DNA of 64,000 nt, from assembly GCA_016871495.1 (NCBI GenBank), contig VHDF01000012.1, positions 1 to 64,000 on the forward strand, read 5' to 3'. The position numbers and the translations under genes are program-made. Origin of the DNA: Verrucomicrobiota bacterium (GTDB lineage: Bacteria; Verrucomicrobiota; Verrucomicrobiia; Limisphaerales; VHDF01). The notes beneath the pieces were generated by a model. That model worked only from the letters and a program-made list of their open reading frames with translations, was not told where the DNA came from and did no database searches. Positions 7,190 to 29,557 of the stretch are shown one piece after another (within the stretch, counting starts at the first letter, position 1; each line of letters begins with the position of its first letter).

Positions 7190-7858
7190 ATGTCAGATAT
7201 CTTTCCCAAATGGACGAACAGGCTACCTGGCCAGATTTTGGTCGGGGCGCTGCTCGTGGGGAGTGCGGTCATCGGCGGAGTTTGGTACTACGCCACCCCG
7301 AAGTATACCCGCGTGGGTTATCAACCGATTCAGCCCGTTTCATTTTCCCACGCCACCCATGCCGGCCAGTTGGGCATTGATTGCCGGTATTGCCATTCGG
7401 CGGTTGAAAAGTCCTGGTACTCAAACATTCCCAGCAGCTCGACCTGCATGAACTGCCATAATCAAGTGCTCAAAGACGATCCGCGTCTGGCCTTGGTGCG
7501 GGAAAGCGCCTCCACCGGCAAGCCCATTCCCTGGGTGCAGGTCCATAAAGTTCCCGATTACGTCTATTTCAATCACTCCGTCCATGTGACCCGGGGCATC
7601 AGTTGCGTGGAATGCCATGGTTCTATCGATAAAATGGACGAGGTTTCGCACGCCAAGCCCTTGAGCATGGCTTTCTGTCTCGATTGCCATCGTGATCCGG
7701 CGGCGAAAATTCGTCCCCCGGACAAAATCACGGATTTAAATTGGAAATGGAGCGAGGATCCGGTGAAGAACGCCGAACTTCAGAAGCAACACGGCGCCCA
7801 GTTTGTGCATGACTGGAAAGTCGAATCCCTCCAGAGCTGCTCCGCCTGTCATCGATGA
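7190..7858 (+). CDS. actA: Alternative complex III subunit ActA, pentahaem cytochrome c
   Basis: 222 residues with one N-terminal membrane helix (about 15-33) and five CXXCH haem-c sites at residues 65-69, 86-90, 139-143, 163-167 and 217-221. Five haems and a single anchor are the known make-up of ActA. It faces the periplasm and passes electrons within the quinol-oxidising complex III alternative. First gene of a run of tightly packed genes; its stop overlaps the actB start (ATGA). No Shine-Dalgarno is visible before the ATG. Confidence 0.93.
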   Translation: MSDIFPKWTNRLPGQILVGALLVGSAVIGGVWYYATPKYTRVGYQPIQPVSFSHATHAGQLGIDCRYCHSAVEKSWYSNIPSSSTCMNCHNQVLKDDPRLALVRESASTGKPIPWVQVHKVPDYVYFNHSVHVTRGISCVECHGSIDKMDEVSHAKPLSMAFCLDCHRDPAAKIRPPDKITDLNWKWSEDPVKNAELQKQHGAQFVHDWKVESLQSCSACHR

Positions 7859-10800
7859 AAACCATTCCCCCGCCTTGTCCCGAGCCGGAGTCCGGCCCTC
7901 AATATTGGCGCAGTTTGGAGCAATTATCCGATTCGCCCCAGTTCCGCCAATGGGTTGAACGGGAGTTTCCCCATGGCGCGGGCGAGATGTCCGATCCGCA
8001 TTCGCGCCGCCATTTCATGCGGATCATGGCCGCTTCCTTTCTCCTTGCTGGAGCGGGCGGCATGGGAAGCGGGTGTCGGCGTCCCGAGGAAAAGATTCTT
8101 CCGTTCGGCAAAGCTCCTGAGAATTACATCCACGGAGTTCCCCAATATTTCGCCACTTCAAGGCCGTCGCGTGGAACGGCCTTCCCGCTCGTGGCTCGTT
8201 CCAACGATGGTCGCCCCACCAAAGTTGAGGGCAATGCCCAGTTCCCCGGGCAGGCCGGCGGAACGGATGTTTACACTCAAGCTTCGATTCTGGACCTCTA
8301 TGATCCGGATCGTTCGTTGAAGGTGACGCAGGCCGGGAACACCCGGAAACGCGAGGCGGGAATCGATTTTCTCGCTGAACTGGCACGCAAAGGACAGAGT
8401 TCTTTGGGGGCAGGGATCGCTTTCTTGAGCGACCGCAGCAGTTCCCCATCCCGCCATCGGCTGCAATCCGAAATTCTGGCCAAGTGGCCTGCCGCCCGCT
8501 GGTTCGAACATGAGGCGGTCGATTTCGAAGTTCATCGGGAGGCGGCCAGGGCCGCATTCGGGCCTGATCCCAGCGGCGCCACGGGAATGCGACCCGTCGT
8601 TTCCCCAGTGTATCGCCTGGAGAAGGCCAGCCGCATCGTGACGCTCGATGCGGATATTCTCGGCTCCGAAGAGGAGTCGGCCCGCCTCATCCAGGGCTAT
8701 GCCCATGGCCGCAGGCTGGAGAAGCCGACGGATCCGTTGAGCCGGCTTTATGCCGTGGAATCGCTGATGACCTTGACGGGTGGCAACGCGGATCACCGTT
8801 TGCGCGTGGTTCCCAGCTTGGTGCCCGCCATTGCGGCGCGTCTCGCCCAGGAAGTTCTGCGCGTTACGGGCGCGCTCGGCGAGGCCGTGAGCCCGCTTTC
8901 AGGCGTCGCGGGGCCGGCTTCGGCCCACGAAAAGTGGATCGTGGAATGCGCCAAGGATCTGGCGGCGCATAAAGGTTCTTCTTTGGTTGTCGCGGGTTAC
9001 CGGCAGCCGCTGGCCGTGCATTTGATGGCCCACGCCATCAACGCCGCGCTCGGTGCGGTTGGCACAACCCTCGAATTGCGACCCTTGATGGCTCCCGCGT
9101 CGGGATCTCTCCCCGAACTGGCCGCCTTGCTGAATCGAGGCCAAGTCGACACCCTGGTCATCCTCAACGACAATCCGGTTTATTCTGCTCCTGCCGATCT
9201 CGATTGGGCCTCCACCCAGCGGAAGGCCAAGACCGTGGTTCGGCTCGGTTTTTACCAGGACGAGACCGGCCTCGCTGCTGACTGGCATTTTCCGGCCACC
9301 CATTATCTGGAAAGCTGGAGCGACGGGCGCACCGCCGATGGCACACTCGTGCCGGTGCAGCCGCTGATCGCTCCTCTGTTCGACGGCGTGATGGAGTTGG
9401 AGTTTCTGGCCCGCCTCGCCGGTTTGCCGGTGACGAGCGCATACGAAATTGTCCGGACCACCTTCAAGGCCCAAAGCCTTGCGGGCGACCCCGAGCAAGC
9501 TTGGAAGAAGTTTCTGCACGACGGTTACCTCGAAGGCAGCGCCCCGAAACCGGTCGCTGCATCCTTCAAGGTTTCCGCGCTGGTTTCCTCTCTGGCTAGT
9601 TTGACACCCCCCGCTCCCGCTTCCGCGGAGAAGTTGGAAGTCGTTTTCTTCCGGGACAGCAGAGTCGATGACGGACGCCAGAACAACAACGGCTGGTTGC
9701 AGGAGCTTCCGGATCCCGTCACGAAGATGGTTTGGGAAAATGTCGTGCTGCTCAGCCAGAAGACCGCCGACGATCTCAAACTTCAAATCGTCGATCGAGA
9801 GGACAACAATTTGCGCGTGCCGTGGGTGAGAGTGATCCTCGCCGGGCGCAACGTGGAAGGCCCCGCGTGGATTCAGCCCGGCATGGCGGATCACACCGTG
9901 GGGCTGGCCCTGGGCTACGGACGTGGCAAGGCGGGCCGGGTTGGGCAAAACACGGGCTACAACGCCTATAAAATTCGCCCCGCCGGGTCACTGCATCGCG
10001 CCGCGGGAGCTCAGGTTCAGTTCCTGGAGAACCTCCACCCGTTGTCCACCACCCAGAATCACTGGGCGATGGAAGGCCGCCCGATCGTTCGCGAGGCCAA
10101 TCTGGAGCAGTTCAAGGAACGCCCCGATTTCGCGAAGGGCATGAACATGCACGAGCCTCCCGGCCTTCGCGGCAAGGACGGTCAGCTCGAACCCCTCTAT
10201 CAGAATCCACTCGATATTCCGGGTCCGGACGGCAAATCGCCGCGGGACCGCGCCACGCATGCCTGGGGGATGTCGATCGATCTCAACACGTGCGTGGGCT
10301 GCTCGGCCTGCATGATTGCCTGCCAGGGTGAAAACAACATCCCCATCGTCGGAAAGAATCAAGTGTCCCGCAACCGCGAGATGCACTGGATCCGGCTGGA
10401 CCGCTATTACGCCGGCGAAGTGGCCGATCCGCAGATGATCTTGCAGCCGATGCTTTGCCAGCATTGCGAGAGCGCCCCGTGCGAGAACGTGTGCCCGGTG
10501 AACGCCACCGTGCATGACGAGGAAGGCCTGAACGTCATGGCCTACAACCGGTGCGTGGGCACGCGTTACTGCTCGAACAACTGCCCCTACAAGGTTCGCC
10601 GGTTCAATTACGTCGACTACAACCGCCGCCCCTTGCACTTGCTGGCCGGCCCGTTCTATACCACGCCGCTTCTGCACTCGACGGACGGCGAATGGGACTT
10701 GATCCGATGGTGGAAGAATCCGGATCGAGGCATTCGCCCGGACGACGAATGGGAGCTGCTCAAGCTCGTCAAGAATCCGGATGTCACCGTGCGCATGCGC

Positions 10801-11217
10801 GGCGTCATGGAGAAATGCACTTTCTGCGTGCAGAGAATCGAGCAGGCCAAGATCGCGCAGAAGGTCAAGGCCGGCCCGCAAGGCAACATCGAGGTGCCCG
10901 ACGGGACGATCAAGACCGCGTGCGAACAAGCGTGTCCGTCCGGCGCCATCGTGTTTGGCAACATGAAGGATCCCAACAGCCGGGTTTCGAAGCTCAAGGC
11001 GCAGCAGCGCGATTACACCGTGCTGGAATTTCTGGCCACGAAGCCGCGCATCACTTATCTGGCGAAGATTCGCAATCCGAATCCCGCCATGCCCGATTAC
11101 GCGAAATCGCCGGGCAGTTTCAAGGAATGGGAAGGCATGGGGAACAAGCTGGGCCACCATGGCGCAGCCCACGGCACCCCCGGTGGTTACGCGGCTGATA
11201 AGAAAGGAGCGCACTAA
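7855..11217 (+). CDS. actB: Alternative complex III subunit ActB, Fe-S/molybdopterin-like
   Basis: 1120 residues. A twin-arginine motif ([14 protein letters not shown]51-R52) predicts Tat export. Residues about 90-790 are a molybdopterin-oxidoreductase-like domain, which in ActB binds no molybdenum cofactor. The C-terminal ferredoxin-like domain starts near 806 and has Cys groups at 813/816/819/823, 868/871/876/880, 900/906/910, 988/991 and 1023/1027, enough for the four Fe-S clusters known from ActB. It carries electrons between the quinol site in ActC and haems of ActA/E. Overlaps actA by 4 nt and touches actC (TAATG). Confidence 0.93.
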
Positions 11218-12647
11218 TGTCCGAGGCGGCGTTACCCTCATCGATCAAGATCGCGCCCCCTCCGGCGGAGCTCGAACGCGAGCCGCTGGTCAGAAACCAA
11301 CGCGGTATCGGGTGGCTCTCGGACCAGGTCGCCGCCATCATGGAGGGGAAAACCCCGACTTGGTGGTGGATGGCGTTCGTACCGAGCTTCGGCTTCATGA
11401 GCCTCCTCGGGGCCATGCTGATTTACCAGATCAGCGTGGGCGTTGGAGTCTGGGGCAACAACCACCCGGTCATGTGGGGTTGGGACATCATCAATTTCGT
11501 CTGGTGGATCGGTATCGGACACGCCGGCACCCTGATCTCAGCGATCTTATTCCTCCTCCGGCAAAAATGGCGCACCGCCGTCAATCGCGCCGCCGAAGCC
11601 ATGACGATTTTCGCCGTCATGTGCGCTGGAATTTATCCCGCGCTGCACGTTGGCCGCGTCTGGTTCGATTGGTGGTTGTTCCCCATCCCGAACTCGAACG
11701 GCCCCGTCTGGCCGCAGTTTCGCTCGCCGTTGATGTGGGACGTGTTCGCGGTCTCGACTTACTTCACGGTATCCGCGCTCTTCTGGTACGTCGGGCTCAT
11801 CCCTGACTTGGCGGTGATGCGGGACCGGGCGAAGACCACGATCCGCAAGTTCCTGTATGGCTTGTTCGCCCTCGGATGGACGGGTTCGAACCGGCACTGG
11901 AGCAACTACGAAAAGGCTTATTTGATTCTGGCGGGACTTTCCACGCCGCTGGTGTTGTCCGTGCACTCGATCGTTTCGCTGGACTTCGCGGTCTCCCAGC
12001 TTCCGGGCTGGCACACGACGATTTTCCCGCCGTATTTCGTGGCCGGCGCCATTTTCTCCGGATTCGGCATGGTGCTCACCCTGCTGGTGCCGTTGCGGAA
12101 GATCTGCAAGCTCGAGGACGTGATCACGATGAGGCACATCGATGTGATGTGCAAAGTGACGCTGGCGACGGGCTCGATCGTGGGTTACGCCTACGGGATG
12201 GAGTTCTTCATCGCCTGGTATAGCGGCAGTCCGTACGAGCGCTTCGCCTTCATCAACCGCGCCATCGGGCCCTACGCCTGGGGCTACTGGATCATGATTG
12301 GCTGCAACGTGCTTGTGCCGCAGCTCTTCTGGTGGAAGGCGATTCGGCGCAACGTCTGGATCGTGTTCATCCTTTCGATCCTGGTGAACATCGGCATGTG
12401 GTTCGAGCGCTTCGTCATCATCGTGATTTCGTTGCATCGGGAATTTCTGCCGTCCAACTGGTCCTACTTCAAACCGACCTGGGTGGATATCTGCACGTTC
12501 CTGGGCACATTCGGCCTGTTTTTCACCATGTTCCTTCTGTTCCTGAGATTTCTGCCCATGATCGCGATCTCTGAAGTGAAAGGGGTGACTCCACAGGCGG
12601 ATCCCCACCATCCGCTGGGAGGCGCCAAGGAAGGAGGGCATCACTGA
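11217..12647 (+). CDS. actC: Alternative complex III subunit ActC, NrfD/PsrC-type membrane protein
   Basis: 476 residues with about ten membrane helices in the NrfD/PsrC pattern, including the family-typical run [18 protein letters not shown] near residues 84-101. ActC is one of the two quinol-interacting membrane subunits of ACIII. The ATG overlaps the actB stop by one base, and the actD ATG overlaps its own stop by one base, so translational coupling is likely. Confidence 0.93.
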
Positions 12648-13186
12648 TGACCTCGAGCGCGAGAGCTTACGGCATCCTGGCCGAGTATGACACGCCTGCG
12701 GACATCATGCACGCGGCCGAGAAGGTGCGCGACGCGGGTTTCCGGCGCTGGGATGTGTTCACCCCGTTTCCGATTCACGGCATGGATCAGGCGATGGGGA
12801 TCAAGAATTCCCGGGTCGGCTGGTTTTCTTTCGTGGGGGGCGCGACGGGATACACCCTCGGCATGCTCATGATTTGGTTCACCAATGCCATCGACTATCC
12901 GTTGATCGTAGGCGGCAAGCCGATGTTCAGTCCGCACGCCGCCTTCCCGCCGTCCTACGAGTTGACGATTCTGCTCGGGGCGTTCGGCGCCTTGTTTGGC
13001 ATGCTTTTCCTGAACAAATTGCCCCGGCTGTATCACCCGTTGCTCAAGCATCGCCGTTTCGCCCTGGCGACCCACGACAAATACTTCCTCGTGATTGAAA
13101 CCGCGGATCCCAAATACTCGGAATCCGACATCCGCCAGCTGCTCGAATGCAGCGGGTGCAAGCGGGTGGAAATGGTGGAGGAATAG
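12647..13186 (+). CDS. actD: Alternative complex III subunit ActD (DUF3341)
   Basis: 179 residues with two central membrane helices and the DUF3341 signature at the start (YGILAEYDTPADIMHAAEKV) and after it (RRWDVFTPFPIHGMD). ActD is a small membrane subunit without cofactors. It is embedded in the act gene order with no spacer on either side. Confidence 0.92.
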   Translation: MTSSARAYGILAEYDTPADIMHAAEKVRDAGFRRWDVFTPFPIHGMDQAMGIKNSRVGWFSFVGGATGYTLGMLMIWFTNAIDYPLIVGGKPMFSPHAAFPPSYELTILLGAFGALFGMLFLNKLPRLYHPLLKHRRFALATHDKYFLVIETADPKYSESDIRQLLECSGCKRVEMVEE

Positions 13187-13801
13187 ATGCGCTACTTCCT
13201 CGCTGGATTGATCTTGTTGGCGGCCGCCGTCGTCGGCGTCGCCGGATTCCGCGGCGGCCTGTCCCGCCGCCCGCCCATCGAAGTTTTTCCGGACATGGAC
13301 CGCCAGCCGAAGTTACGGCCCCAGACGGATGCCTCGTTTTTCGGAGACGGATTGAGTTCGCGTCTTCACGTTTCGGGCACGGTGGCCCGAGGCGCGCCCT
13401 ATGAAGACCTGCCCGTCAACACCGGAATGGTCACGGGCACGACGAACTTCGTCGCCTCCATCCCGGTGGAAGTGAACGCGGGAATGATGGCGCGTGGACG
13501 CGAACGATACGACATCTACTGCGCGCCGTGCCATGGGGTGGCGGGTGATGGAAAGGGAATCACCACCAAATATGGCATGGCGATCATTGCGAATCTTCAC
13601 GACAAGCGGATCGCGGAAATGTCGGATGGCGAACTGTTCAGCATCATCACCCATGGCAAGAACAACATGGGCTCCTACGCCGCGACGGTGCCGATCCCGG
13701 ATCGCTGGGCGATCATTGCCTACACACGGGCCTTGCAACGCAGCCGGCTGGCGTTGATCGACGAAGTGCCTCCCGCCGCAAGGGCCGTTCTCAAGAAATA
13801 A
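13187..13801 (+). CDS. actE: Alternative complex III subunit ActE, monohaem cytochrome c
   Basis: 204 residues with an N-terminal hydrophobic segment and one haem-c site CAPCH at residues 112-116, inside ERYDIYCAPCHGVAGDGKG. A Met-containing stretch downstream (NNMGSYAATV) could be the sixth ligand. ActE is the peripheral monohaem subunit thought to hand electrons to a soluble cytochrome or to an oxidase. Starts directly after the actD stop. Confidence 0.92.
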   Translation: MRYFLAGLILLAAAVVGVAGFRGGLSRRPPIEVFPDMDRQPKLRPQTDASFFGDGLSSRLHVSGTVARGAPYEDLPVNTGMVTGTTNFVASIPVEVNAGMMARGRERYDIYCAPCHGVAGDGKGITTKYGMAIIANLHDKRIAEMSDGELFSIITHGKNNMGSYAATVPIPDRWAIIAYTRALQRSRLALIDEVPPAARAVLKK

Positions 13802-13813
13802 CTTTCCCTGTCT

Positions 13814-15040
13814 ATGGCCTCACATCATCCAACTCCGGCGGGTTCTCCCTTGGATTTGTCCAAGTGGGCCAAAGTTCCGGCCTTGCTCATGGGAGTGGGC
13901 GGCGCGGGCGCGCTGTTGGGCGCTTTCACCAACCACGTCCAGTTCGGTTATTCCTGGCTGCTCGCCTACATGTTTTTCCTCAGCCTGTGCATGGGCGGGC
14001 TGTTTCTGGTTCTGGTGCATCATCTTTTTGACGCCAGTTGGTCGGTGCCCATCCGGCGGATCAACGAACATCTGGCCTGCCTGGCGCCGGTCATGGCTGC
14101 CTTGTGGATTCCCATCGGGCTGCTCGCGCCCAAGCTCTACCGGTGGATGACGAGCGACCACGCGACCGATCACGCGTTGCATGCGAAGTATCCGCTCTTC
14201 ACGATGCCCGCTTTTTACGGTGTCTCCATCGCGTGCTTCGTGCTTTGGACGTTCGTTGCTTTCAGGCTGCGGGGCCTTTCGCTGGAGCAGGACCGGACGG
14301 GTGACGCGCGATGCACTGAGAAGATGCGGGTGACCGCCTGCGCGGGCATTTTCATTTTCGGCTTTTCTTTGACCCTGGCGGTCATTCTTTGGATGAAAGC
14401 CCTGGCGCACGAGTGGTTCTCCACGATGTACGGCGTTTACTATTTCGCGGGCAGCACATGGCTCACGCTGGCGACCGTTTATGTGATCACCGTGATTTTG
14501 AAGCGCCGGGGTGATTTGAAGGATGTCATGCAGGAGAAGCAGTTTTATTTCCTCGGTTCCCTGTTCTTCGCCTTCACGGTGTTTTACGCCTACGTCACGT
14601 TCTCGCAGTATTTCATCATCTGGAACGCGAACATGCCGGAGGAGACGTTCTGGTACAAGCTGCGCGAGAAGGGCACCTGGTTTCAGCTCTCGCTCGTGAT
14701 CATCTTCGGCAAGTTCTTCCTGCCGTTTCTCGCCCTGCTGCGGATCGACGCGAAGTTGAACTTGGCGGTGATGCTGCCGCTCGCCGCCTGGGCTTGGGTC
14801 ATGCACTTCTGCGACATGTCGTTCAATATCATGCCGGTGCTCCACCAGGACGGTTTTGTTCTTCACTGGCAGGACGTCGCGTGCTGGGCGTTCTTCGCCG
14901 GAGCCCTCGCGCACTTCTGGATCAAATCCTACCGGCAACACCCGCCCTTCCCGCAGCGCGATCCGCGCATGGCTGAAGGGTTGGGCATTTATGTCGAACC
15001 TGTCAGCGCCAAGAAACTGGCGGGGCAGGGCGCCAAATAA
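13814..15040 (+). CDS. actF: Alternative complex III subunit ActF, NrfD-like membrane protein
   Basis: 408 residues with about ten membrane helices. It is the second NrfD-like quinol-binding subunit of ACIII, paralogous to ActC, with family-typical features such as GMYYFAGSTW-like and NMPEET(F)W motifs. It lies 12 nt after actE and ends the canonical actABCDEF order. A separate ActG is not seen; the next gene is a small unrecognised protein. Confidence 0.92.
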   Translation: MASHHPTPAGSPLDLSKWAKVPALLMGVGGAGALLGAFTNHVQFGYSWLLAYMFFLSLCMGGLFLVLVHHLFDASWSVPIRRINEHLACLAPVMAALWIPIGLLAPKLYRWMTSDHATDHALHAKYPLFTMPAFYGVSIACFVLWTFVAFRLRGLSLEQDRTGDARCTEKMRVTACAGIFIFGFSLTLAVILWMKALAHEWFSTMYGVYYFAGSTWLTLATVYVITVILKRRGDLKDVMQEKQFYFLGSLFFAFTVFYAYVTFSQYFIIWNANMPEETFWYKLREKGTWFQLSLVIIFGKFFLPFLALLRIDAKLNLAVMLPLAAWAWVMHFCDMSFNIMPVLHQDGFVLHWQDVACWAFFAGALAHFWIKSYRQHPPFPQRDPRMAEGLGIYVEPVSAKKLAGQGAK

Positions 15041-15097: not shown

Positions 15098-15499
15098 GTG
15101 AACCCCGAAACTCCCCAATCCCAGGAAACCGGATGTTGTTCGTGCGGACCGGCCGCCGCTCGCATCTTCGGCGGGTTGGCCGCCTTTCTCGTCCTCGCCG
15201 CCATGGTTGGTGTGGTCCGGCATTATTCGACTCCGGCGCCCGTGGGCGTCGAGAAGACCGCGTTGCGAGAAAAGAACTTGAAGGAAATCCAAGCCGCGGG
15301 TGTCGAGGCCCTGGGCCATTACGCCGTGTTGGATCCGGCCAAGGGCTTGGTCCGCATCCCTGTCACGGACGCGATGAAGGCGGTCGAAGCCGGCTACAAG
15401 AACCCCACCGCTTTTCGGTCCGATATGATGGCTCGCCTTGTCAAAGCTTATCCGCCGCCCCCGCCCAAGGAACCCGAGAAGCCGAGCCAGTTCGAATAG
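15098..15499 (+). CDS. Small single-helix membrane protein of unknown function in the act locus
   Basis: 133 residues, GTG start at 15098. A Cys-rich start (ETGCCSCGP, residues 10-18) is followed by one membrane helix (about 22-44), a short exposed domain (LREKNLKEIQAAGVEAL...VRIPVTDAMKAV) and a Pro/Glu-rich tail. I do not recognise a family. Its position between actF and the CcoN-like gene suggests a small accessory subunit or assembly factor for the respiratory complex. No haem motif is present. Confidence 0.7.
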   Translation: MNPETPQSQETGCCSCGPAAARIFGGLAAFLVLAAMVGVVRHYSTPAPVGVEKTALREKNLKEIQAAGVEALGHYAVLDPAKGLVRIPVTDAMKAVEAGYKNPTAFRSDMMARLVKAYPPPPPKEPEKPSQFE

Positions 15500-15512: not shown

Positions 15513-16976
15513 ATGAGCGAAACCCGTCCAACGCCGGAATCCACCGCGTCGGTCTCCGAGGCGATGAAGTCGTCCGATGCAAGCTGCCGCGACGCGGGGT
15601 TGTTGCTTTTCTGGATGGCCGCGACTTGGGCGGTGGCTGGTGCTCTGCTGGGCCTGTTGAGTTCGTTAAAGTTTCACGGACCCGGGATGGGATCCGGAGC
15701 GGTGCTGACTTACGGACGCGTCTATCCCGCGTCGAACTTTCTTCTTTTTTACGGAGCGCTCGCGCAAGCGGCGATCGGTGTGATGTTGTGGCTGATCGCT
15801 CGACTGTCGGGGCGCCCGCTCGCCTCGGCCTGGATGGTTTTGCCGGGCGGGTTGTCCTGGAACTTGGGGGTGCTTTCCGGCGCGGGCGCCATATTGACCG
15901 GAAACGCCACGGGCATTTCCGGATTTGAGATTCCAAGAGGGCCGGCCGTGATGATGCTGGCGGGATACTGCGCCATGGCGTTGCCCGGTTTGTTGACCCT
16001 GATGACACGGCGGGACAAGCCTTGGTATGTCAGCGAGTGTTTTCTTCTCGCCGCGTTGTTCTGGTTTCCGTGGGCGTTTTCGACCGCGATTTTGTTCATC
16101 CACGTGTTTCCGGCCCGGGGCATGATGCTGGTGCTGGTTGGGGAATGGCAGTATTCGAACCTCTCGAGAGTCTGGCTGGCCTTGATCGCCTACGCCGTGC
16201 TGTTTTACATGGTTCCTAAGCTCGCACGCCGCCCTCTGGAGAGCGGACCGACGGCGGCTTTTACCTTTTGGCTGACGGTCTTTTTCTCGAGCTGGATCGC
16301 AGTCCCCCCGGGTTCGCCGGTGCCCGCTTGGCTGCAAGGCGTGAGTGGTTTGGCGGCGATGGTTTCGGTCGCGCCGATGCTGGCGGCGGTCACCAACTTG
16401 CGAGCGACGTGCGGGGACCAAGCCGAGGCGATTCGTTCTCAGCCGGGTGGAATCTGTTTTCTGGTCTCCATCCCGTGTCTGCTGGTGGCGAGTTTGCTCC
16501 AAGCGGGGGCCTCTTTTCGCGGGGTGGCGGATGTTCTGGGCTACACCTTTTTTGAGATGGGTTTGCACACGGTCTTCACGGGCGGATTTGTCGGACTCAC
16601 GGTCCTGGGAGCGGTTCTGTTTGCCTTGCCCCGGTTGACCGGTGTGCCGTGGGGCGCGGAATCAATGATTAGCATGGTGGGCAAGCTCGCCACCGGAGCG
16701 GTCGTCGTGGTGGGCGTTTCCCTGCTGGGCGCCGGGATTTTACAAGGCTTTGCGGCTGCGGATGTGAGTGTGCCGTTCGAAACCGCGTTGAAACGGGGCA
16801 TGGGGCCCTTCCGATTGAGCACGCTGGGCTGGCTTGCCGGGGTGGGAGCGGCCGTGGTGGTTTGGATGCAAATCACCGCCCTGGGATGGAAAGTCTGTTC
16901 CGTGTGCTGCATCCCGCCCCTCTTCCGTGAAATGTTGCCGGCGGGGAAAGCCAAGAAAGCGGAGGTGGCAGCGTGA
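15513..16976 (+). CDS. CcoN-like haem-copper-oxidase subunit I homologue lacking all metal ligands
   Basis: 487 residues with about 12 membrane helices, aligning along its length with cbb3 oxidase subunit I (for example YGRVYP, FYMVPKLARRPL, GAVLFALPRL). Compared with the CcoN consensus as I know it, the low-spin haem His of GRLRPLHT is Ser74, the CuB His of YGHN is Ser215, the CuB pair of AGPHH is Pro265-Pro266, the active-site Tyr is Ser259, and the GHVH haem ligands are Leu351 and Thr353. Only three His remain in the protein (55, 197, 352). It should not bind haem b3/CuB or reduce oxygen. Its GTGA stop overlaps the CcoO-like start, so the two are coupled. Start at the ATG; upstream in-frame starts overlap the preceding gene. 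Confidence 0.85.
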   Translation: MSETRPTPESTASVSEAMKSSDASCRDAGLLLFWMAATWAVAGALLGLLSSLKFHGPGMGSGAVLTYGRVYPASNFLLFYGALAQAAIGVMLWLIARLSGRPLASAWMVLPGGLSWNLGVLSGAGAILTGNATGISGFEIPRGPAVMMLAGYCAMALPGLLTLMTRRDKPWYVSECFLLAALFWFPWAFSTAILFIHVFPARGMMLVLVGEWQYSNLSRVWLALIAYAVLFYMVPKLARRPLESGPTAAFTFWLTVFFSSWIAVPPGSPVPAWLQGVSGLAAMVSVAPMLAAVTNLRATCGDQAEAIRSQPGGICFLVSIPCLLVASLLQAGASFRGVADVLGYTFFEMGLHTVFTGGFVGLTVLGAVLFALPRLTGVPWGAESMISMVGKLATGAVVVVGVSLLGAGILQGFAAADVSVPFETALKRGMGPFRLSTLGWLAGVGAAVVVWMQITALGWKVCSVCCIPPLFREMLPAGKAKKAEVAA

Positions 16977-17644
16977 ATCGGGGTCCTTTGATTTTTGCGG
17001 GAATCCTGCTGGCGATGGGGACGGCTTGGTGCGGATTGATCTTTGCGCCGCATTTGCAGCTTGGCGCGCTGCAGCCCGCTCCTTCGGTCGGCATCTCGTC
17101 CGCGTTATACCCCACGAGGTTGGAGGGGCGCTCGCAGCAGGGGGCCGAGGTTTATCGCTCTCTGGGTTGCGCTCACTGCCACAGCCAGAATGTGCGGGGA
17201 AACGTGGCGGATCTGAGCCGATGGGGACCGCGCCGGACCGTGTCGCGCGATTATCTTTATGATGAGCCGCCGCTGCCGGGGACATTGCGGATCGGTCCGG
17301 ATTTGTCCAATGCGGGTGCCCGGCAGCCGGACGCGGCCTGGCATTTGGCGCATCTTTATCAACCGCGCTCCAAGGTTGTGAAATCGCTCATGCCCCCGTA
17401 TCCGTTTTTGTTTGAGGTGCGGAAGATTGGAGAAGCGCCTTCACCGAAGGCATTGCGATTGGAAAGTCCTTACGCGCCTCCGGAGGGCTTTGAAGTGGTT
17501 CCCAAGCATGAGGCGGAGGTGTTGGTCGCGTATCTTTTGGATCGGAAGAAGAGTGTGGCGCTTTTCGAGGCGCCGATGCCCTCGTCTTTGAAGAAGGAAG
17601 AAGCGGGAGCCACGAATGCTCCGACGGGTGCGGTTGCTCCCTAG
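16973..17644 (+). CDS. CcoO-like membrane-anchored monohaem cytochrome c
   Basis: 223 residues: an N-terminal helix (about 7-27) and a single CAHCH haem site at 66-70 within LGCAHCHSQNVRG, then GPDLSNAG and SLMPPYPFL, whose Met is the expected sixth ligand. These are the hallmarks of cbb3 oxidase subunit II (CcoO). GTG start overlapping the CcoN-like stop. The haem motifs are intact even though its presumed partner subunit has lost its cofactors, so it probably still carries electrons. A Lys/Glu/Ala-rich tail ends the protein. Confidence 0.88.
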   Translation: MNRGPLIFAGILLAMGTAWCGLIFAPHLQLGALQPAPSVGISSALYPTRLEGRSQQGAEVYRSLGCAHCHSQNVRGNVADLSRWGPRRTVSRDYLYDEPPLPGTLRIGPDLSNAGARQPDAAWHLAHLYQPRSKVVKSLMPPYPFLFEVRKIGEAPSPKALRLESPYAPPEGFEVVPKHEAEVLVAYLLDRKKSVALFEAPMPSSLKKEEAGATNAPTGAVAP

Positions 17645-17651
17645 CCAGCTC

Positions 17652-18278
17652 ATGAAGTCAAAATCTTCCAAGCCCCCCGCGCCGTTGATCGGACCTGAGC
17701 CTGCCGAGCCGCAGGTGGGACGTTCCGCGATCCCGCTCTGGCTTGTGATGGCGGTAGGCGTGCTGTTTTATTTGGGGTCGATGTACCTCGAACAAACGGG
17801 GGGTGGATTTCACGCCGAAGTTTTTGAGCCTCACCGTTCGATCAAAGTGGTGCGGGATTTGCAGCCGAAAGATGAGGGTGGCCGTTTGATCGCCCTAGGC
17901 AAGGCAAAGTATGAGCAAACTTGCCAGTTGTGCCACCAGGCTACGGGTTTGGGAGTGGTTGGCCAGTTTCCCCCTTTGGCGGGTTCGGAATGGGTCACCA
18001 CGCCAGGCATTGCAAGACTGACTCGAATCATTTTGCACGGAGTGAGCGGACCGATCGAAGTGAAAGGTGTCAAATGGGAGGCCGCCATGCCGCCTTTCGG
18101 TAGCGCGTTCACCGACGAAGAGATTGCGGCGATTATGGCCTACATTCGCACTCAGAAGGACTGGGGTAATAGTGCATCGAGCGTCAAGGTTGAGGACGTG
18201 GCCGCCATTCGAAAGGCCACAGGCGACCGAGCTCCCTGGACGGCCGATGAATTATTGAAGATTCCCGAATCGGAATAA
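17652..18278 (+). CDS. Membrane-anchored monohaem cytochrome c (CcoP-like position)
   Basis: 208 residues with one membrane helix (about 27-47) and a class I cytochrome c domain: CQLCH at 91-95 and the Met stretch AAMPPFGSAFTDEEIAAIMAYIR. It lies 7 nt after the CcoO-like gene and takes the place that a ccoP would have, but with one haem rather than two. Likely to accept electrons from ACIII/CcoO-like protein and pass them on. The ATG at 17652 is preferred over 17616, which overlaps the preceding gene. Confidence 0.85.
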   Translation: MKSKSSKPPAPLIGPEPAEPQVGRSAIPLWLVMAVGVLFYLGSMYLEQTGGGFHAEVFEPHRSIKVVRDLQPKDEGGRLIALGKAKYEQTCQLCHQATGLGVVGQFPPLAGSEWVTTPGIARLTRIILHGVSGPIEVKGVKWEAAMPPFGSAFTDEEIAAIMAYIRTQKDWGNSASSVKVEDVAAIRKATGDRAPWTADELLKIPESE

Positions 18279-20356: not shown

Positions 20357-21811
20357 TCAGTTGCGCAGAGCCTTGACGGCGGCTTCGGCCGCAGCCAGGA
20401 GCGGTTTGGGAACGATTCCCAACACCACCACCGCAGCCGCACACGCTCCCAGGCCGAATCCGGCCAAGGTGGACACGGGCAGGGCTGGCATGGATGGGTT
20501 GTGCGGCGCCCAGTAGGCGGCGCGGATCAGGCCGAAGTAGTAATAAAACGAGGCGACGACGCCGAAGAGTGCCACGCCGACGAGGGCGTAATACGAAGTG
20601 AAAGAAACACCCTGTTCCAGCGCGGATTTGATCAGCAGAAACTTGCCCGTGAATCCCACCAAGGGGGGGATGCCGGCCAAGGATACCACGCAAAGAGTCA
20701 GGCACGCCGCCATGTAGGGTGAGCGTTTGGAAAGTCCGGCGAGCGAGTTGAAATCCACCGAAGTCTGCTGTCCGCTCAGAAGAGTTATCACGGTGAAGAT
20801 CCCCAGCACCGCGAAGGCATAAGTTCCGAGATAAAAAAGAATGGCGGTGGATCCCGCCGGGGTCATGGCGGCGACACCCAGCAACAGGAACCCCGCGTTG
20901 GCTATGCTGGAATAGCCCAGCAGGCGTTTCAGATCGCGCTGAGGCAGCGCGCAGAGACTGCCATAAAGGATCGTGCAGCCCGCGATGGCCAGCAGGAGTT
21001 TTTCCCACTTCAACGCCACATCCGGAACGACCGAAAAGGTCCAACGGACCAACAGCACAAAGCCCGCCGCCTTCGAGCCCACGGATAAAAGCGCCGTCGT
21101 GGGAGCCGGGGCGCCTTGATAAACATCCGGAGCCCACATGTGCAGGGGGACGGCGGCAATTTTGAACAGGAATCCGCCCAGGACCAGGATCAAGCCCGCG
21201 AGAAACAGTTTGTTTGCAATGAGCGCCGGCGCTTTGAGGGCGATGTCCTGGAAGCGGGTGCTGTTGGAAGTTCCGAAGACGAGCGCAATCCCGAAAACCA
21301 GAAATCCCGAGGAGAGAGCACCGATGATGAGATACTTCACGCCGGCCTCGAGACTCGCGGTTTTGCCGCGCTGAAAACTGGTCAGCACATAAAAGCTGAC
21401 CGTGATCAGCTCCAGGCAGACGAACATCATGCTCAAGTCCGTGGCGGACGCTGCGAACAGCATGCCGGCGAGCGCCATCAATTGCAGGGTGTGATATTCG
21501 GCGATGCCGGCTTTGATTTGAGGAGCAAACTCGATTGTCATCAAGGCCACCACGAATCCCGCGGCCAGAAACAGGCGTTTGAAGAACAGGGCCAGCGGAT
21601 CCATCGTGATCATCCCTCCGAAGGAAGCCCCCGGGGCCGGCTCCCAAGCGGGCACGAAAGAGGCCAGCAACAACAGGAGCAGACCTCCCGCGGCCGCGAA
21701 CCCCAGCTTCCGCTTATGTTCCACCGGCGTCCACAGATCCGCCACCAAAATGGCGAGGCCCAGGCCAACCGTGGCGAACTCGAGGTAAAGTGACGACCAG
21801 GAAAAGTTCAT
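20357..21811 (-). CDS. nuoN: NADH-quinone oxidoreductase subunit N
   Basis: 484 residues, about 14 helices, the antiporter-like subunit ND2/NuoN of complex I. Family motifs visible include KYLIIGALSSGFLVFG and APDVYQGAPAPTTALLSVGSK, the latter the proton-antiporter signature. Start taken at the ATG 10 nt after the nuoM stop; the longer open frame overlaps nuoM. Last gene of the operon. Confidence 0.93.
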   Translation of the reverse strand: MNFSWSSLYLEFATVGLGLAILVADLWTPVEHKRKLGFAAAGGLLLLLLASFVPAWEPAPGASFGGMITMDPLALFFKRLFLAAGFVVALMTIEFAPQIKAGIAEYHTLQLMALAGMLFAASATDLSMMFVCLELITVSFYVLTSFQRGKTASLEAGVKYLIIGALSSGFLVFGIALVFGTSNSTRFQDIALKAPALIANKLFLAGLILVLGGFLFKIAAVPLHMWAPDVYQGAPAPTTALLSVGSKAAGFVLLVRWTFSVVPDVALKWEKLLLAIAGCTILYGSLCALPQRDLKRLLGYSSIANAGFLLLGVAAMTPAGSTAILFYLGTYAFAVLGIFTVITLLSGQQTSVDFNSLAGLSKRSPYMAACLTLCVVSLAGIPPLVGFTGKFLLIKSALEQGVSFTSYYALVGVALFGVVASFYYYFGLIRAAYWAPHNPSMPALPVSTLAGFGLGACAAAVVVLGIVPKPLLAAAEAAVKALRN

Positions 21812-21821
21812 GAGGACCGAA

Positions 21822-23396
21822 TCATTGGGCGGCCAGCCGTGGTTCCGTTCCGGGTAGGCTGGGCAAACGAACTCCAATTCCGGGTCTGCCACGGGACTCA
21901 CCAGGCTGCGGCTGGAATCCCGCGATCCGGACGGCGCGCTCCACGCCCGGACGCACCCGGTCGAGCAGAAGGCGAGGCCAGCAGCCCAGCAACAGCAGGC
22001 AGGCAACGAGGAGGATCATAGGGAAACCGCGCCAGAGCGAAGCATCGGAAGCGGAGGTGAATCCAGCCGGGACAGGGCCGTGCAATATGCTTCGAATCCC
22101 CCGCAGCATGTAAACCGCCCCGATGATGAGCGCGCCCCAGGCCGCCGCGACCACGAACCACGGCATGGTTTTCCAAGCGCCAAACAACACCAGCGCTTCC
22201 CCCGCGAAATTGGCAAAACCGGGAACTCCGCATCCCGCCATCATGGCCATGATCAAAAGGGTCCCAATGAGGGGCATGCGGGCGAGGAGTCCGCCCAATT
22301 GGGTCATATCCGTGCTGCCCACATGGTGTCGAAAATAACCGTGCAATGAAAAACTGAGGGCCGCGAGCAAGCCGTGGGCGACCATCACCATGACGGCACC
22401 GGCCACCCCGGCAATGCTCAGACTCGCAATGCCGAGGAAAATGAACCCCACATGAGCAACGCTCGAATGGCCGATCAACTGGCCCAGGTCTTTTTGCCGC
22501 ATAGCCACCCATCCGCAGTGGAGGATGTTCCCCAAACACAAGATGGCCAGGACAGGCATCCATTCGCGAGCGCCCTCCGGCAGAAGGGGCAGTCCGACGC
22601 GGATCAATCCGTAAAGACCGAACTTCTTGAGCACCCCGGCGTGGAGCATGGCAGCAGGGGTGGGTGCGGCGCCGTATCCCAGCGGCGCCCAAGTGTGAAA
22701 CGGCCAGAGAGAAACCAGGATTCCGAACCCGAACAGCAAGAGCCCGAAAATCGTGCTCTGTTCCCCTGAAGGAATGGGCTTGGCCTGGACAGCTTTTGCC
22801 AGAGCAACCCAGTCGAATGTTTTGGCGCCGGATTGGACGTAAAGCAGAATGAGTCCGACCAGGGCGATCAATGCACCCGCCGTCAGGTAGAGCGTGATTT
22901 TGAACGCGGCGTAGTTCTTGTCAGGGCCCGACCCCCAGACGCCGATCATGATAAACGTCGGCACCAGGGCGAGTTCGTGGAAGAAGTAGAAAAAGAACAA
23001 GTCGATGGAGGCGAAGGCCCCCAGCACCCCAGCCGCCATGACCTGCAACAGAACGTAGAATTCCTTGTCCCGTTCCGACCGGATTTCCCAAGCGGCACAT
23101 ACCGCGGCAAAGGCGACAATGGCCCCCATGACGATGAGGCCGAGATTGAGCCCGTCCACGCCCAGTTTGAATTGAATGCCCAGCGATGGCAGCCAAGCCC
23201 ACTCCTGGACAAAACGAAACCCGTCCACCTCCGGGGCTTGATCGAAGCGCGCGGCGAGGAGCAGGGACAACAGCATCGTCAGGGCGGAGCTGGCCAGGGC
23301 CAGCATCCGGATGCCGAATCGAAAGTTTCTCGGCACGGCCAGGATGAGGCCGGCGGTGGCGAGCGGCAGCAGGATGATAAGAGTTAACAGCGACAT
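21822..23396 (-). CDS. nuoM: NADH-quinone oxidoreductase subunit M
   Basis: 524 residues, antiporter-like ND4/NuoM subunit with FFHELALVPTFIMIG (the conserved proton-channel Glu) and WAPLGYGAAPTPAAMLHAGV. ATG at 23396, 2 nt after the nuoL stop. The C-terminus extends past the last helix with a basic, Gly/Pro-rich tail of about 35 residues that is not typical of the family and may be lineage-specific. Confidence 0.94.
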   Translation of the reverse strand: MSLLTLIILLPLATAGLILAVPRNFRFGIRMLALASSALTMLLSLLLAARFDQAPEVDGFRFVQEWAWLPSLGIQFKLGVDGLNLGLIVMGAIVAFAAVCAAWEIRSERDKEFYVLLQVMAAGVLGAFASIDLFFFYFFHELALVPTFIMIGVWGSGPDKNYAAFKITLYLTAGALIALVGLILLYVQSGAKTFDWVALAKAVQAKPIPSGEQSTIFGLLLFGFGILVSLWPFHTWAPLGYGAAPTPAAMLHAGVLKKFGLYGLIRVGLPLLPEGAREWMPVLAILCLGNILHCGWVAMRQKDLGQLIGHSSVAHVGFIFLGIASLSIAGVAGAVMVMVAHGLLAALSFSLHGYFRHHVGSTDMTQLGGLLARMPLIGTLLIMAMMAGCGVPGFANFAGEALVLFGAWKTMPWFVVAAAWGALIIGAVYMLRGIRSILHGPVPAGFTSASDASLWRGFPMILLVACLLLLGCWPRLLLDRVRPGVERAVRIAGFQPQPGESRGRPGIGVRLPSLPGTEPRLAAQ

Positions 23397-23398
23397 GG

Positions 23399-25315
23399 TC
23401 AGCTCACGAGCGTCATCAGCAGCATGAGGACGAGCCCCGCGACGACGAAAAAGGCATAGGTTTGCAGACTGCCGGTCTGGAAGAGCCGGAGGGCGCGCCC
23501 TGCCAGGTCCACGGTGCCATGGGCACCCTTGACCCCCAGGCCGGCGATGATCCAACGGTCGATCCATCCGGCGAGCGCAGCCAAGGCATCATGGAGCCGC
23601 ACCCCGATTTTCTCGTACAATTCGTCGAAGTAAAAACGCGCGCGCATCGCTCGCGCGAGTGCGCCCAGTTTGGCGGGCAGGGGATCCCGTGAGGCGCCGC
23701 CATACAAGGCGGCGGCGAAACTGACGCCGAACAGCGTCGCGCCGAGTCCGAACATGGCCGCGGCGGGAGCATGCCCGAACGGAGCGAACGGGTCGAAGCC
23801 GTGTCCCGGGCCGTGGGGAACGGCTGACGGAGGAAGGAATTGGAGCGTGAATCGCTCTTCAAGCCCGAAAAACCCCGCGATCACCGAAGGGACCGCGAGC
23901 AAGAGAAGGGGATAAGACATGACCGGCGGCGACTCGTGCGCGTGGGAGGCATGATCGGACCGCGGTGATCCCAGGAAAGCGACCAGGAAAAGCCGGCTCA
24001 TGTAAAACGCGGTCATGCCCGCAACGGTCACCGCCAAAGCGAACAGCACGGGATTCCCGTGCGAGGCGGCGGCGAGGACGGCGTCCTTACTGTAGAAACC
24101 GCTGAGTGGAGGCACCCCGCAAAGCGCGGCGGTGCCGATGAGAAAGGTCCAAAACGTGACCGGCATGGAACGGCGAAGTCCGCCCATCTTCCAAATATCC
24201 TGCTCGTGATGGAGTGCGTGGATCACGGAGCCCGCCCCCAGAAACAGAAGCGCTTTGAAGAAAGCGTGGGTGCTGAGATGGAACATGGCGGCGGCGGGAC
24301 CTCCGACTCCCACCCCCATGACCATGTAGCCGAGTTGTGAAAGCGTGGAATAGGCGAGGATGCGCTTGATGTCGTCCTGCTGCATGGCCATGAGGGCGGC
24401 GAGCAGGGCGGTGAACCCGCCGATCCACGCGACGATGTCTGCCGCCGACCAGCCGTGGAGGAACGCGAGTGCCTCGGGCCAGGAGGCCGGGAGTTGGAAG
24501 AGGAAAAACATGCGGCAGAGCATGAACACGCCCGCAGCCACCATGGTGGCGGCGTGGATGAGCGCGCTGACCGGAGTGGGTCCTTCCATCGCGTCGGGCA
24601 GCCAGACGTGGAGAGGGAACTGGGCGGACTTTCCCATGGCTCCGCAGAACACCAGGAGAGCGGCGAGACTGGCGAGCGATCCCAAGGCGGCGGGATGGGT
24701 CTCGAGGTGCTTTGCGAGTTCGGTGAAATGGAGGGTGCCGGTGGCGGACCACACGATCAGAATGCCGAGAATAAAGCCGAAATCACCCAGGCGATTGGTG
24801 AGGAAGGCCTTTTTGCAGGCATCCGCCGCCGCGGGTTTCTCGTGCCAGAACCCGATGAGCAAATAGCTGGAGACCCCGACCAACTCCCAGAAAATGAACA
24901 TCTGCAGAAAATTGGTCGAGACCACGATGCCCAGCATTGAAAACATGAACAGGCTCAGGCTGCCGAAGAAACGGGCAAATCCGGGATCGCCGCTCATGTA
25001 GCCGAAGGAATAAGCATGAATGGCCGTGCCCACTCCGGTGACGACGAGGAGCATGAGCAGGCTTAAGGTGTCGACGCGGAAACCAAAGTCGGCCTGGAAT
25101 CCCGCCACTTCCATCCAACGCACACTGAGCTCCACCCCTTGGGAGCCCGGGGGAGCGCTCAGGGCGAGCGCGACGGTGAGGAGAAATGAGCCTGCGACGG
25201 CCCCGATGGAAATGAGCGCGCTGAGTTGGGGGGAGCGCCGGGCGCCCAGCGTGATCGCCACCGCTGAAAAGAGCGGCAGGAACAGGATGAGCCAGGCGTA
25301 AGCGGGGGCGGTCAT
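23399..25315 (-). CDS. nuoL: NADH-quinone oxidoreductase subunit L
   Basis: 638 residues, the largest antiporter-like subunit (ND5/NuoL). Motifs include FWELVGVSSYLLIGFW, LPDAMEGPTPVSALIHAATMV and LAYSTLSQLGYMVMGVG. The C-terminal part carries the lateral helix region after about residue 500. It lies 4 nt after nuoK. Confidence 0.95.
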   Translation of the reverse strand: MTAPAYAWLILFLPLFSAVAITLGARRSPQLSALISIGAVAGSFLLTVALALSAPPGSQGVELSVRWMEVAGFQADFGFRVDTLSLLMLLVVTGVGTAIHAYSFGYMSGDPGFARFFGSLSLFMFSMLGIVVSTNFLQMFIFWELVGVSSYLLIGFWHEKPAAADACKKAFLTNRLGDFGFILGILIVWSATGTLHFTELAKHLETHPAALGSLASLAALLVFCGAMGKSAQFPLHVWLPDAMEGPTPVSALIHAATMVAAGVFMLCRMFFLFQLPASWPEALAFLHGWSAADIVAWIGGFTALLAALMAMQQDDIKRILAYSTLSQLGYMVMGVGVGGPAAAMFHLSTHAFFKALLFLGAGSVIHALHHEQDIWKMGGLRRSMPVTFWTFLIGTAALCGVPPLSGFYSKDAVLAAASHGNPVLFALAVTVAGMTAFYMSRLFLVAFLGSPRSDHASHAHESPPVMSYPLLLLAVPSVIAGFFGLEERFTLQFLPPSAVPHGPGHGFDPFAPFGHAPAAAMFGLGATLFGVSFAAALYGGASRDPLPAKLGALARAMRARFYFDELYEKIGVRLHDALAALAGWIDRWIIAGLGVKGAHGTVDLAGRALRLFQTGSLQTYAFFVVAGLVLMLLMTLVS

Positions 25316-25319
25316 GCGG

Positions 25320-25628
25320 TCAGAGTTTCAGGGATGCCAAGTCCTCCACGTGCGCCGACTGGCGTTTGCGGTAGAGGGCCACGATCAGGGCGAGGCCGAC
25401 GGCGACTTCAGCGGCGGCCACCGTGATGATGAAGAAAACCATGACTTGGCCGTTCAAATGATCGTTGAACCGCGAGAACGCCACCAGAGCCAGATTGGCG
25501 GCATTGAGCATCAGTTCGAGGGACATGTAGAGCACCAGGAGATTGCGGCGCAGAATGACGCCCAGAACGCCCAGGCAAAAGAGCAGCCCGCTGACGACCA
25601 GATAATGTTCGAGACCGACCTTCATCAT
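25320..25628 (-). CDS. nuoK: NADH-quinone oxidoreductase subunit K
   Basis: 102 residues, three membrane helices, with the ND4L/NuoK motif [24 protein letters not shown] minus flanking residues; the buried Glu of the 'SLELML' helix is present. Usual length for the family. Starts 4 nt after nuoJ. Confidence 0.94.
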
Positions 25629-25632
25629 GGAC

Positions 25633-26142
25633 TTATTGGAGATCCTTTTTGCTTAGGAGAATCACGCCGACCATGGCCACCAGCAACACCAGGGACACGA
25701 CCTCGAAGGGCAGCACAAACTCCGTGAACAAGACGCGGCCCAGCGCCGACGTGCTCCCTTCAAGCGAGGGGTTGATCCCGCCCGGGGCGGCGCGTCCTTT
25801 CAAAACGGACAGCACCAGGACCCCGGCCAATCCGGCCACGGAGGCCAGGCCCGCGCCGACTCCAAACCGGTTGAATTTCCGCCGGTCCTCTTCCTTCAAG
25901 TCGAGCAGCATAATGACGAAGAGGAAGAGCACCATGACGGCACCCGCGTAAACGAGGATCTGGACGGCGGCGAGGAAGAACGCGTGCAAGAGCACGAAAA
26001 GTCCGGCCAGGCAGATGATGGTCAGCACGAGAAACATCGCGCTGGTCACCGGGCTTCGGCTGAAGGGATTGGCCACGACCAGAAACCCGCAGAGCAGGGT
26101 CAGGCCGGCGAGCAGATAGAATGCGAAATCGGCGGGGCTCAT
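25633..26142 (-). CDS. nuoJ: NADH-quinone oxidoreductase subunit J
   Basis: 169 residues, five membrane helices, ND6/NuoJ family ([20 protein letters not shown] is the characteristic helix). The ATG at 26142 lies 1 nt after the nuoI stop and is preferred over an upstream start that would overlap nuoI by about 85 nt. Confidence 0.93.
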
Positions 26143-26143
26143 T

Positions 26144-26707
26144 TCAGGACCGGGCCACGGGGAATGTTTCCTGGGCGTCCGCTTCGACCTGCTTTTGCTT
26201 CCATTTCTGGATGGTGTCCTGGTGAACACCGCCGAGCGCCAGCAGTTTTTCCTTGTTGTAGAGCAGTTCCTCGCGCGATTCGGCGGTGAACGAATAATCC
26301 TTCATCAAGAAGATGGCTTCCTCCGGGCACACTTCCTGGCAAAAACCGCAGAAGATGCAGCGCAACATGTTGATCTCGAACTCGCGCGGCATTTTTTCGG
26401 CGTTCGGGCGGTCGGCCGCCTGGCCTTCCGGACCGGGCGGGACGATGCGAATCGCCTTGGGCGGGCAGACGAACTCGCAAAGCTGGCAGGAGACGCACTT
26501 GGTATGGCCGTCCTGGTCCTTGACAAGATAAGGCGCGCCCCGGTAGCCGGGGGGAACCACCCAGCGCTGCTCGGGGTACTCCATGGTCACGGCTTTCCCC
26601 TGCACGGCCGTGCGAAAGAAATGATTCGCCGTGATCCGCAAACCGCCCCAGAGCGCGGGGAGATACAGGCGTTCCCAGAAGGTGAGCTTTTGACGAGGGA
26701 CGATCAT
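26144..26707 (-). CDS. nuoI: NADH-quinone oxidoreductase subunit I
   Basis: 187 residues with two 4Fe-4S motifs, CVSCQLCEFVCP and CIFCGFCQEVCP, which form clusters N6a and N6b between NuoG and NuoB. ATG at 26707 is chosen because an AGGA Shine-Dalgarno-like element stands 5 nt before it; the longer frame begins with TTG inside nuoH. Confidence 0.94.
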   Translation of the reverse strand: MIVPRQKLTFWERLYLPALWGGLRITANHFFRTAVQGKAVTMEYPEQRWVVPPGYRGAPYLVKDQDGHTKCVSCQLCEFVCPPKAIRIVPPGPEGQAADRPNAEKMPREFEINMLRCIFCGFCQEVCPEEAIFLMKDYSFTAESREELLYNKEKLLALGGVHQDTIQKWKQKQVEADAQETFPVARS

Positions 26708-26723
26708 GGGATCCTGATGGAAA

Positions 26724-27809: not shown

Positions 27810-27819
27810 CGAACGGTGT

Positions 27820-29535: not shown

Positions 29536-29557
29536 GGTTGAGATCGGGTCGGCGGCT

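Follow-up and report, generated by a model that had tools for sequence, protein, structure and literature searches.

Judged from its sequence, the homologue of cbb3 oxidase subunit I (CcoN) encoded behind the alternative complex III (ACIII) genes of the window (the whole stretch of DNA analysed, 64,000 nucleotides of a Verrucomicrobiota contig) is a pseudo-enzyme form of the C-family (cbb3) haem-copper oxidase (HCO) subunit I, and a recurrent one. The loss of its ligands makes it well supported that the protein is non-catalytic and can handle neither oxygen nor NO in any way known for HCOs. As its role we favour, with somewhat better than even confidence, that of an inert membrane anchor that would dock two mono-haem cytochromes c to ACIII, from where electrons would travel onward to other oxidases.

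Results

A CcoN homologue without metal ligands in an ACIII operon

The genes lie in the order actABCDEF-(133-aa protein)-ccoN-ccoO-ccoP, which includes the actABCDEF set of an ACIII operon (Table 1). The ccoN frame runs from an ATG to a single stop codon, and a reading of the same stretch on the reverse strand was rejected because of stops on that strand. The protein scores 65.5 bits against Pfam COX1 (cut-off 34.8) and 35.7 bits against NCBIfam TIGR00780, below the cut-off of 583.15 and thus outside that equivalog; its best solved relative by sequence is the Rhodobacter capsulatus chain 6xkw_n (phmmer, E 2e-6). The preliminary description of this DNA had claimed that every haem and copper ligand is lost, and three comparisons (phmmer, a MAFFT alignment of about 155 relatives, and inspection of the alignment columns) bear this out at each position named, with no His aligned at any ligand position: the low-spin haem His is Ser74, the CuB His is Ser215 with the adjoining Asn216 kept, the CuB HH pair is Pro265-Pro266, and the haem ligands of the GHVH motif are Leu351 and Thr353. 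The active-site Tyr of helix 7, present in 100% of 41 intact relatives and in 1% of the ligand-less ones, is Ser259. In most of the ligand-less proteins two residues are deleted directly behind the HH pair, where the local alignment could shift by two residues; the loss of the pair stands despite this possible shift because no His lies anywhere near. A count of His in the whole protein gives exactly three (55, 197, and 352), again as described before and too few for six ligands, and His352 sits between the two lost TM10 ligand positions (351 and 353). The six His that serve the low-spin haem, the high-spin haem, and CuB in the enzymes of the superfamily are therefore missing, as are the His ligands for low-spin haem, high-spin haem, and FeB expected of a NorB, the same positions being empty; the earlier statement that the protein cannot reduce oxygen by the known mechanism is supported by the loss of all ligands.

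The body of the protein is another matter. An AlphaFold2 model built from 50 sequences has a mean pLDDT of 93.7 and a pTM of 0.93, and the top structure matches are all cbb3 CcoN chains (TM 0.82-0.84; VIA Z 46-48, rmsd 2.0-2.5 Å over 441-450 residues). The best PDB match is 3mk7_D (Z 48.1, rmsd 2.0 Å over 441 residues), with NorB (Z 40-43) and A-type subunits (Z about 35) ranking lower. We are confident from this model that the protein adopts the normal 12-helix CcoN fold, which, together with its descent, places it in the superfamily.

The gene partner that the preliminary description had pointed out is retained, with its haem site: a mono-haem CcoO encoded beside ccoN, as is characteristic of CcoN, exceeds the Pfam FixO cut-off of 29.6 bits but stays below that of TIGR00781 (78.8 bits, cut-off 200.65). 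The ccoN stop overlaps the ccoO start by 4 bases, and ccoO overlaps ccoP by 29 bases. Across the class, the act-(133-aa)-N-O-P order recurs wherever the sequence is long enough, and CcoO and CcoP each keep their single CxxCH in nearly all loci, ligand-less and intact alike. The 133-aa protein, with the consensus LxxYxWxDxxKGxVRLPxxxAM over 65 copies, is conserved across the class and is, on this sequence evidence, a candidate further subunit. Elsewhere in the window, ORF translations indicate an extended series of nuo genes (complex I) close behind the ACIII operon (20357-30934, minus strand), and a 648-aa ORF (2443-4389, minus strand) resembles, by eye, an N-acetylglucosamine kinase of the BadF type fused to a MurQ-type etherase.

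Table 1. Genes of the ACIII operon in the window
Feature	Position	Strand	Evidence
actA, pentahaem cytochrome c of ACIII	7190..7858	+	five CxxCH; heads operon in relatives
actB, FeS/molybdopterin-type ACIII subunit	7855..11217	+	1120-aa ORF; orthologues in order in L036, L100-L113
actC, NrfD-like quinol-binding membrane subunit	11217..12647	+	Pfam NrfD 83 bits
actD	12647..13186	+	Pfam ActD 221.5 bits
actE, mono-haem cytochrome c	13187..13801	+	one CxxCH; Pfam Cytochrome_CBB3 42.7 bits
actF, second NrfD-like membrane subunit	13814..15040	+	operon position and orthologues; no Pfam match
133-aa protein between actF and ccoN	15098..15499	+	same place in most relatives; no Pfam match
Ligand-less CcoN homologue, 487 aa	15513..16976	+	Pfam COX1, TIGR00780, alignments, cbb3 fold
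CcoO-like mono-haem cytochrome c	16973..17644	+	Pfam FixO 86.7 bits; CxxCH at residue 66; MPPY motif
CcoP-like cytochrome c, one haem site	17616..18278	+	Pfam Cytochrom_C 52.4 bits; single CxxCH; AAMPP motif

Intact, intermediate, and emptied forms across the class

A homologue is present in 51 of 58 genomes of the same order, each from a different family, and a profile built from these homologues matches 232 of the 286 genomes of the class. The act-linked family can be present in at most this many, because the profile also picks up true CcoN, with lower scores (roughly 130-210 bits) and mostly in frames of more than 700 aa. A scan of contigs for named relatives yielded just one more MAG, in a record labelled uncultured Verrucomicrobia. 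Ligand states were read at the seven catalytic columns in about 155 loci, 148 of them of the act family; of these, 41 have the complete set of six ligands and the Tyr, one has five ligands, and 106 have between zero and three. This split does not give unbiased frequencies, since the scores by which the loci were picked came from a profile of mostly ligand-less sequences. Orthologues with the same losses next to actF, as the preliminary description would lead one to expect, occur throughout the order and the class; the intact orthologues in the same operon place, the repetition of the loss, and the intermediates go beyond that description.

Both states are found inside each of the families f7, f66, and f69. 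The locus with five ligands (L057, genome G152) has an act-linked CcoN in which only the first CuB His is gone, replaced by Arg, and it is sister to a fully ligand-less clade. In family f67 (L068, L071, L146, and L148), on the other hand, the low-spin haem b pair is all that is kept (the His of TM2 and the second one of H-x-H), the b3 His has become Tyr, and all CuB ligands are gone; the f67 protein is thus predicted from its sequence to be a haem-b-only form. Genome G038 (86% complete, 2% contamination) carries two copies on different contigs, a ligand-less one beside actF and an intact one (L145, G038:C548). Upstream of the intact copy there is no actF but a short ORF, at about 950-1180, that resembles, by eye, CcoS of cbb3 assembly.

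Trees call for at least four ligand losses

Before tree building, the catalytic columns were removed together with those adjoining them. With ligand-bearing CcoN as the outgroups for rooting, a 39-row mixture-model tree gives four state changes (4 throughout the 5-95% bootstrap range), three of which are forced by the starred branches alone, and a 70-row tree gives six (4-8). Forcing all ligand-less rows into one clade costs 206 log-likelihood units (AU p = 2e-5), so that a single origin of the loss is rejected by the AU test and by the bootstrap. The ligand-bearing form stands at the base of the rooted trees, and intact act-linked copies surround the repeated losses, which establishes descent from a ligand-bearing CcoN. 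Because the outgroups are intact, intact relatives occur at several levels, and a regain of six His is not plausible, the state changes are read as independent losses. The trees thus need at least four separate ligand losses, the exact number being uncertain given the long branches, of which the window protein is one. A quick LG tree that grouped long ligand-less branches near the root was not relied on, since the mixture-model trees moved the f73/f76 group beside the almost intact sister L057.

The emptied protein is maintained

The preliminary description held that the protein is maintained rather than decaying, and the CcoN fold, the retained CcoO partner, and dN/dS values well below 1 agree with it. 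For ligand-less ccoN, dN/dS is 0.085-0.27 in 14 pairs, which does not indicate the relaxed selection that would tell against that description, and for intact ccoN it is 0.05-0.17; these are rough values (NG86, stop-to-stop frames, several intact pairs being dS-saturated), and the pairs are family relatives rather than the window protein itself. In the same genome pairs actF is mostly similar, with 0.34-0.42 in two pairs. The 174 columns with at least 85% conservation in the intact forms include the seven catalytic ones, which are invariant there (100%) but whose residue is retained in 8% of the ligand-less copies on average, versus 57% for the other conserved columns (Mann-Whitney p = 2e-5). 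Retention peaks in the third helix and is lowest in helices 9 and 12.

Other oxidases in the host and its relatives

The host genome (G000; 5.06 Mb, 97% complete, 201 contigs) encodes two further COX1 proteins. One is that of an A-type oxidase, on contig C19, and the other is a CcoN that bears the ligands and is encoded with a CcoO on C56. The gene for the latter CcoN (L002, G000:C56:3064-4359) contains an in-frame TAG (codon at about 1951-1953) where relatives have Trp, in the AIWF region; the TAG may be an assembly error, or it may disrupt the one other cbb3 oxidase gene that the host has. Most members of the order with the ligand-less gene, the host included, have a separate full-length COX1 protein, and in a few drafts with a ligand-less copy (G015, G039, G043, and G045) no other COX1 protein was found, perhaps because the assemblies have gaps or because the oxidase is of another type. 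In f65, f76, f86, f61, f77, and others, the genes of an A-type oxidase follow immediately on N-O-P. That such a neighbour makes CcoN dispensable was considered and rejected, there being no association: cox genes lie within 9 kb at 5 intact and 6 ligand-less loci, out of 20 each. In genome G034 (8.5 Mb, 93% complete; L033 and L095), the intact act-linked CcoN is the sole COX1 match found, which fits a working oxidase.

Discussion

The order of the operon, the conservation of the partners, and the translational overlap lead us to infer that the emptied CcoN ties the two cytochromes to ACIII, the scaffold role that the preliminary description had put forward as a possibility. Its ancestor stood at this place of the ACIII operon and had every active-site ligand; low-spin haem b, haem b3, and CuB would since have been lost, leaving a normally folded CcoN body that would hold neither haem nor copper. 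The co-translated CcoO and CcoP would assemble with this body and with ACIII, their haems being oriented next to ActE and ActA, and the electrons that ACIII takes from quinol would reach a separate oxidase by way of the CcoO and CcoP haems. For the window genome, the probable acceptor is the A-type oxidase on C19, and in several relatives it may be the A-type oxidase encoded directly downstream.

It is also conceivable, but on balance rather unlikely, that the non-catalytic protein has another job, either as a chaperone or platform in the assembly of ACIII or of another oxidase, or as an ion- or quinone-handling subunit akin to ActF. Polar and aromatic residues persist in it (Arg69, Arg97, Asn117, Glu139, Arg166, Trp212, and Tyr232), and ActF is a precedent as a cofactor-free homologue of the quinol-site protein in the same complex (PMC5928083); like the window CcoN as we read it, ActF is a relative without cofactors, in its case of a quinone-site membrane subunit, that is kept in a respiratory complex, but it belongs to another fold and family (NrfD-like). 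Nearly all of the persisting residues, however, are equally conserved in the intact, ligand-bearing relatives and therefore mark no new function, and the haems kept in CcoO and CcoP suit electron transfer better than chaperoning.

We give little credence to an unusual reductase that still binds haem and/or copper through other residues. Some ligand-less members do have one or two His at single sites, and the f67 protein, with its low-spin haem pair, could still hold haem b. The three His of the window protein, one of them placed between former ligand positions, argue against such binding, as does the lack of a conserved replacement: over all alignment columns of 106 sequences, no majority His, Met, Cys, or Lys column specific to the ligand-less forms was found. 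The residues at the ligand sites vary freely, and the haem-pocket residues Arg71 and His343, fully conserved in the intact forms, are lost as well. With no replacement ligand and the pocket residues gone, the cofactors themselves seem to have disappeared.

Nor does it appear likely, to a similarly small degree, that the gene is on its way to loss and kept by drift only. Ligand-less copies evolve faster than intact ones, as their longer branches indicate, and dN/dS reaches the upper end of its range in some pairs (0.27). Against this, reading frames are open, without stops, in nearly all of the more than 100 loci, dN/dS remains far below 1, Gly68, Gly81, Trp212, and Pro271 are conserved at 99-100% in the ligand-less copies, the fold is full-length and confidently predicted, and the age of the loss is such that it extends across many families of an order; a decaying gene is rejected by dN/dS and fold. 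An alignment or assembly artefact, for which the draft state of the assembly (201 contigs) might speak, can be dismissed almost outright, being refuted by the ligand states across loci and the tree and AU results, by the same state in dozens of unrelated assemblies, including the single-contig G155 and G099, and by a fold match that spans the whole protein.

The inert anchor that we favour can be set beside several known systems. The cbb3 CcoN of Pseudomonas stutzeri (3mk7) and R. capsulatus (6xkw) share with the window protein the fold (Z 47-48), the length, the helix count, the VPK-x-x-RP motif, and a downstream CcoO-like partner, whereas the window protein is only 18-19% identical to them and lacks the six His and the Tyr, its gene lies in an ACIII operon, and its CcoP-like partner has one haem site. 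The intact act-linked CcoN of the class (L033, L048, and L066 among them) have the operon position and the partners of the window protein, with 26-29% identity to it; they keep the six His and the Tyr, yet form a divergent branch (about 235-251 bits against TIGR00780, below the cut-off of 583), and their activity is putative. In the ACIII-caa3 and ACIII-aa3 supercomplexes of Rhodothermus marinus and Flavobacterium johnsoniae, electrons are handed over directly from ACIII to the oxidase (PMC5928083, PMC8552683). There, too, ACIII genes are followed by oxidase-type genes, but the partner is an active A-type oxidase, whereas the subunit I adjacent to ACIII in the window is without an active site.

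The same arrangement as in the window operon is seen in the "cbb3-type" genes beside ACIII in Methylacidiphilum and Opitutaceae (PMC6688271, PMC8498564, PMC11102522). The genome paper on Methylacidiphilum kamchatkense ties its cbb3-type oxidase beside ACIII to high oxygen affinity (PMC6688271), a review of verrucomicrobial methanotrophs describes a cbb3-type oxidase beside ACIII and restricts the combination of C-type oxidase and ACIII to these organisms and Opitutaceae (PMC8498564), and strain IT6 has aa3- and cbb3-type genes beside ACIII (PMC11102522). In our data, the f65 genomes, with pmo genes and sizes of 2.2-2.5 Mb, fit Methylacidiphilaceae, and the act-linked CcoN is ligand-less in the three f65 loci read (L100, L101, and L102). 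These three loci carry act genes, ligand-less N, O, and P, and then A-type coxA, coxC, COX4, and coxB in one stretch. The COX1 proteins of five f65 genomes comprise two A-type proteins, a ba3-like and a NorB-like one (WVEATWEV motif), and the act-linked protein; a CcoN with its ligands was not found among them. If f65 is indeed Methylacidiphilaceae, the published cbb3 annotation there needs correction. A ligand-less CcoN was not reported in the literature searched, most subscription journals and preprints lying outside the reach of that search.

Taken as a whole, we see an even chance that across the class an oxidase module of the ACIII operon was repeatedly emptied into a core that only wires cytochromes c into ACIII, with living stages that range from the full set through the loss of one CuB His and low-spin haem b only to none, the "high-affinity cbb3" of methanotrophs being one inert form. 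HCO subunit I is commonly equated with the chemistry of oxygen or NO, and automatic annotation lists its genes among the terminal oxidases. A recurrently emptied subunit I indicates that the protein can be kept for structure alone, and it is a warning that oxygen-affinity inferences drawn from "cbb3 next to ACIII" in Verrucomicrobiota, methanotrophs included, may be wrong. The living intermediates show how a respiratory enzyme loses its metals.
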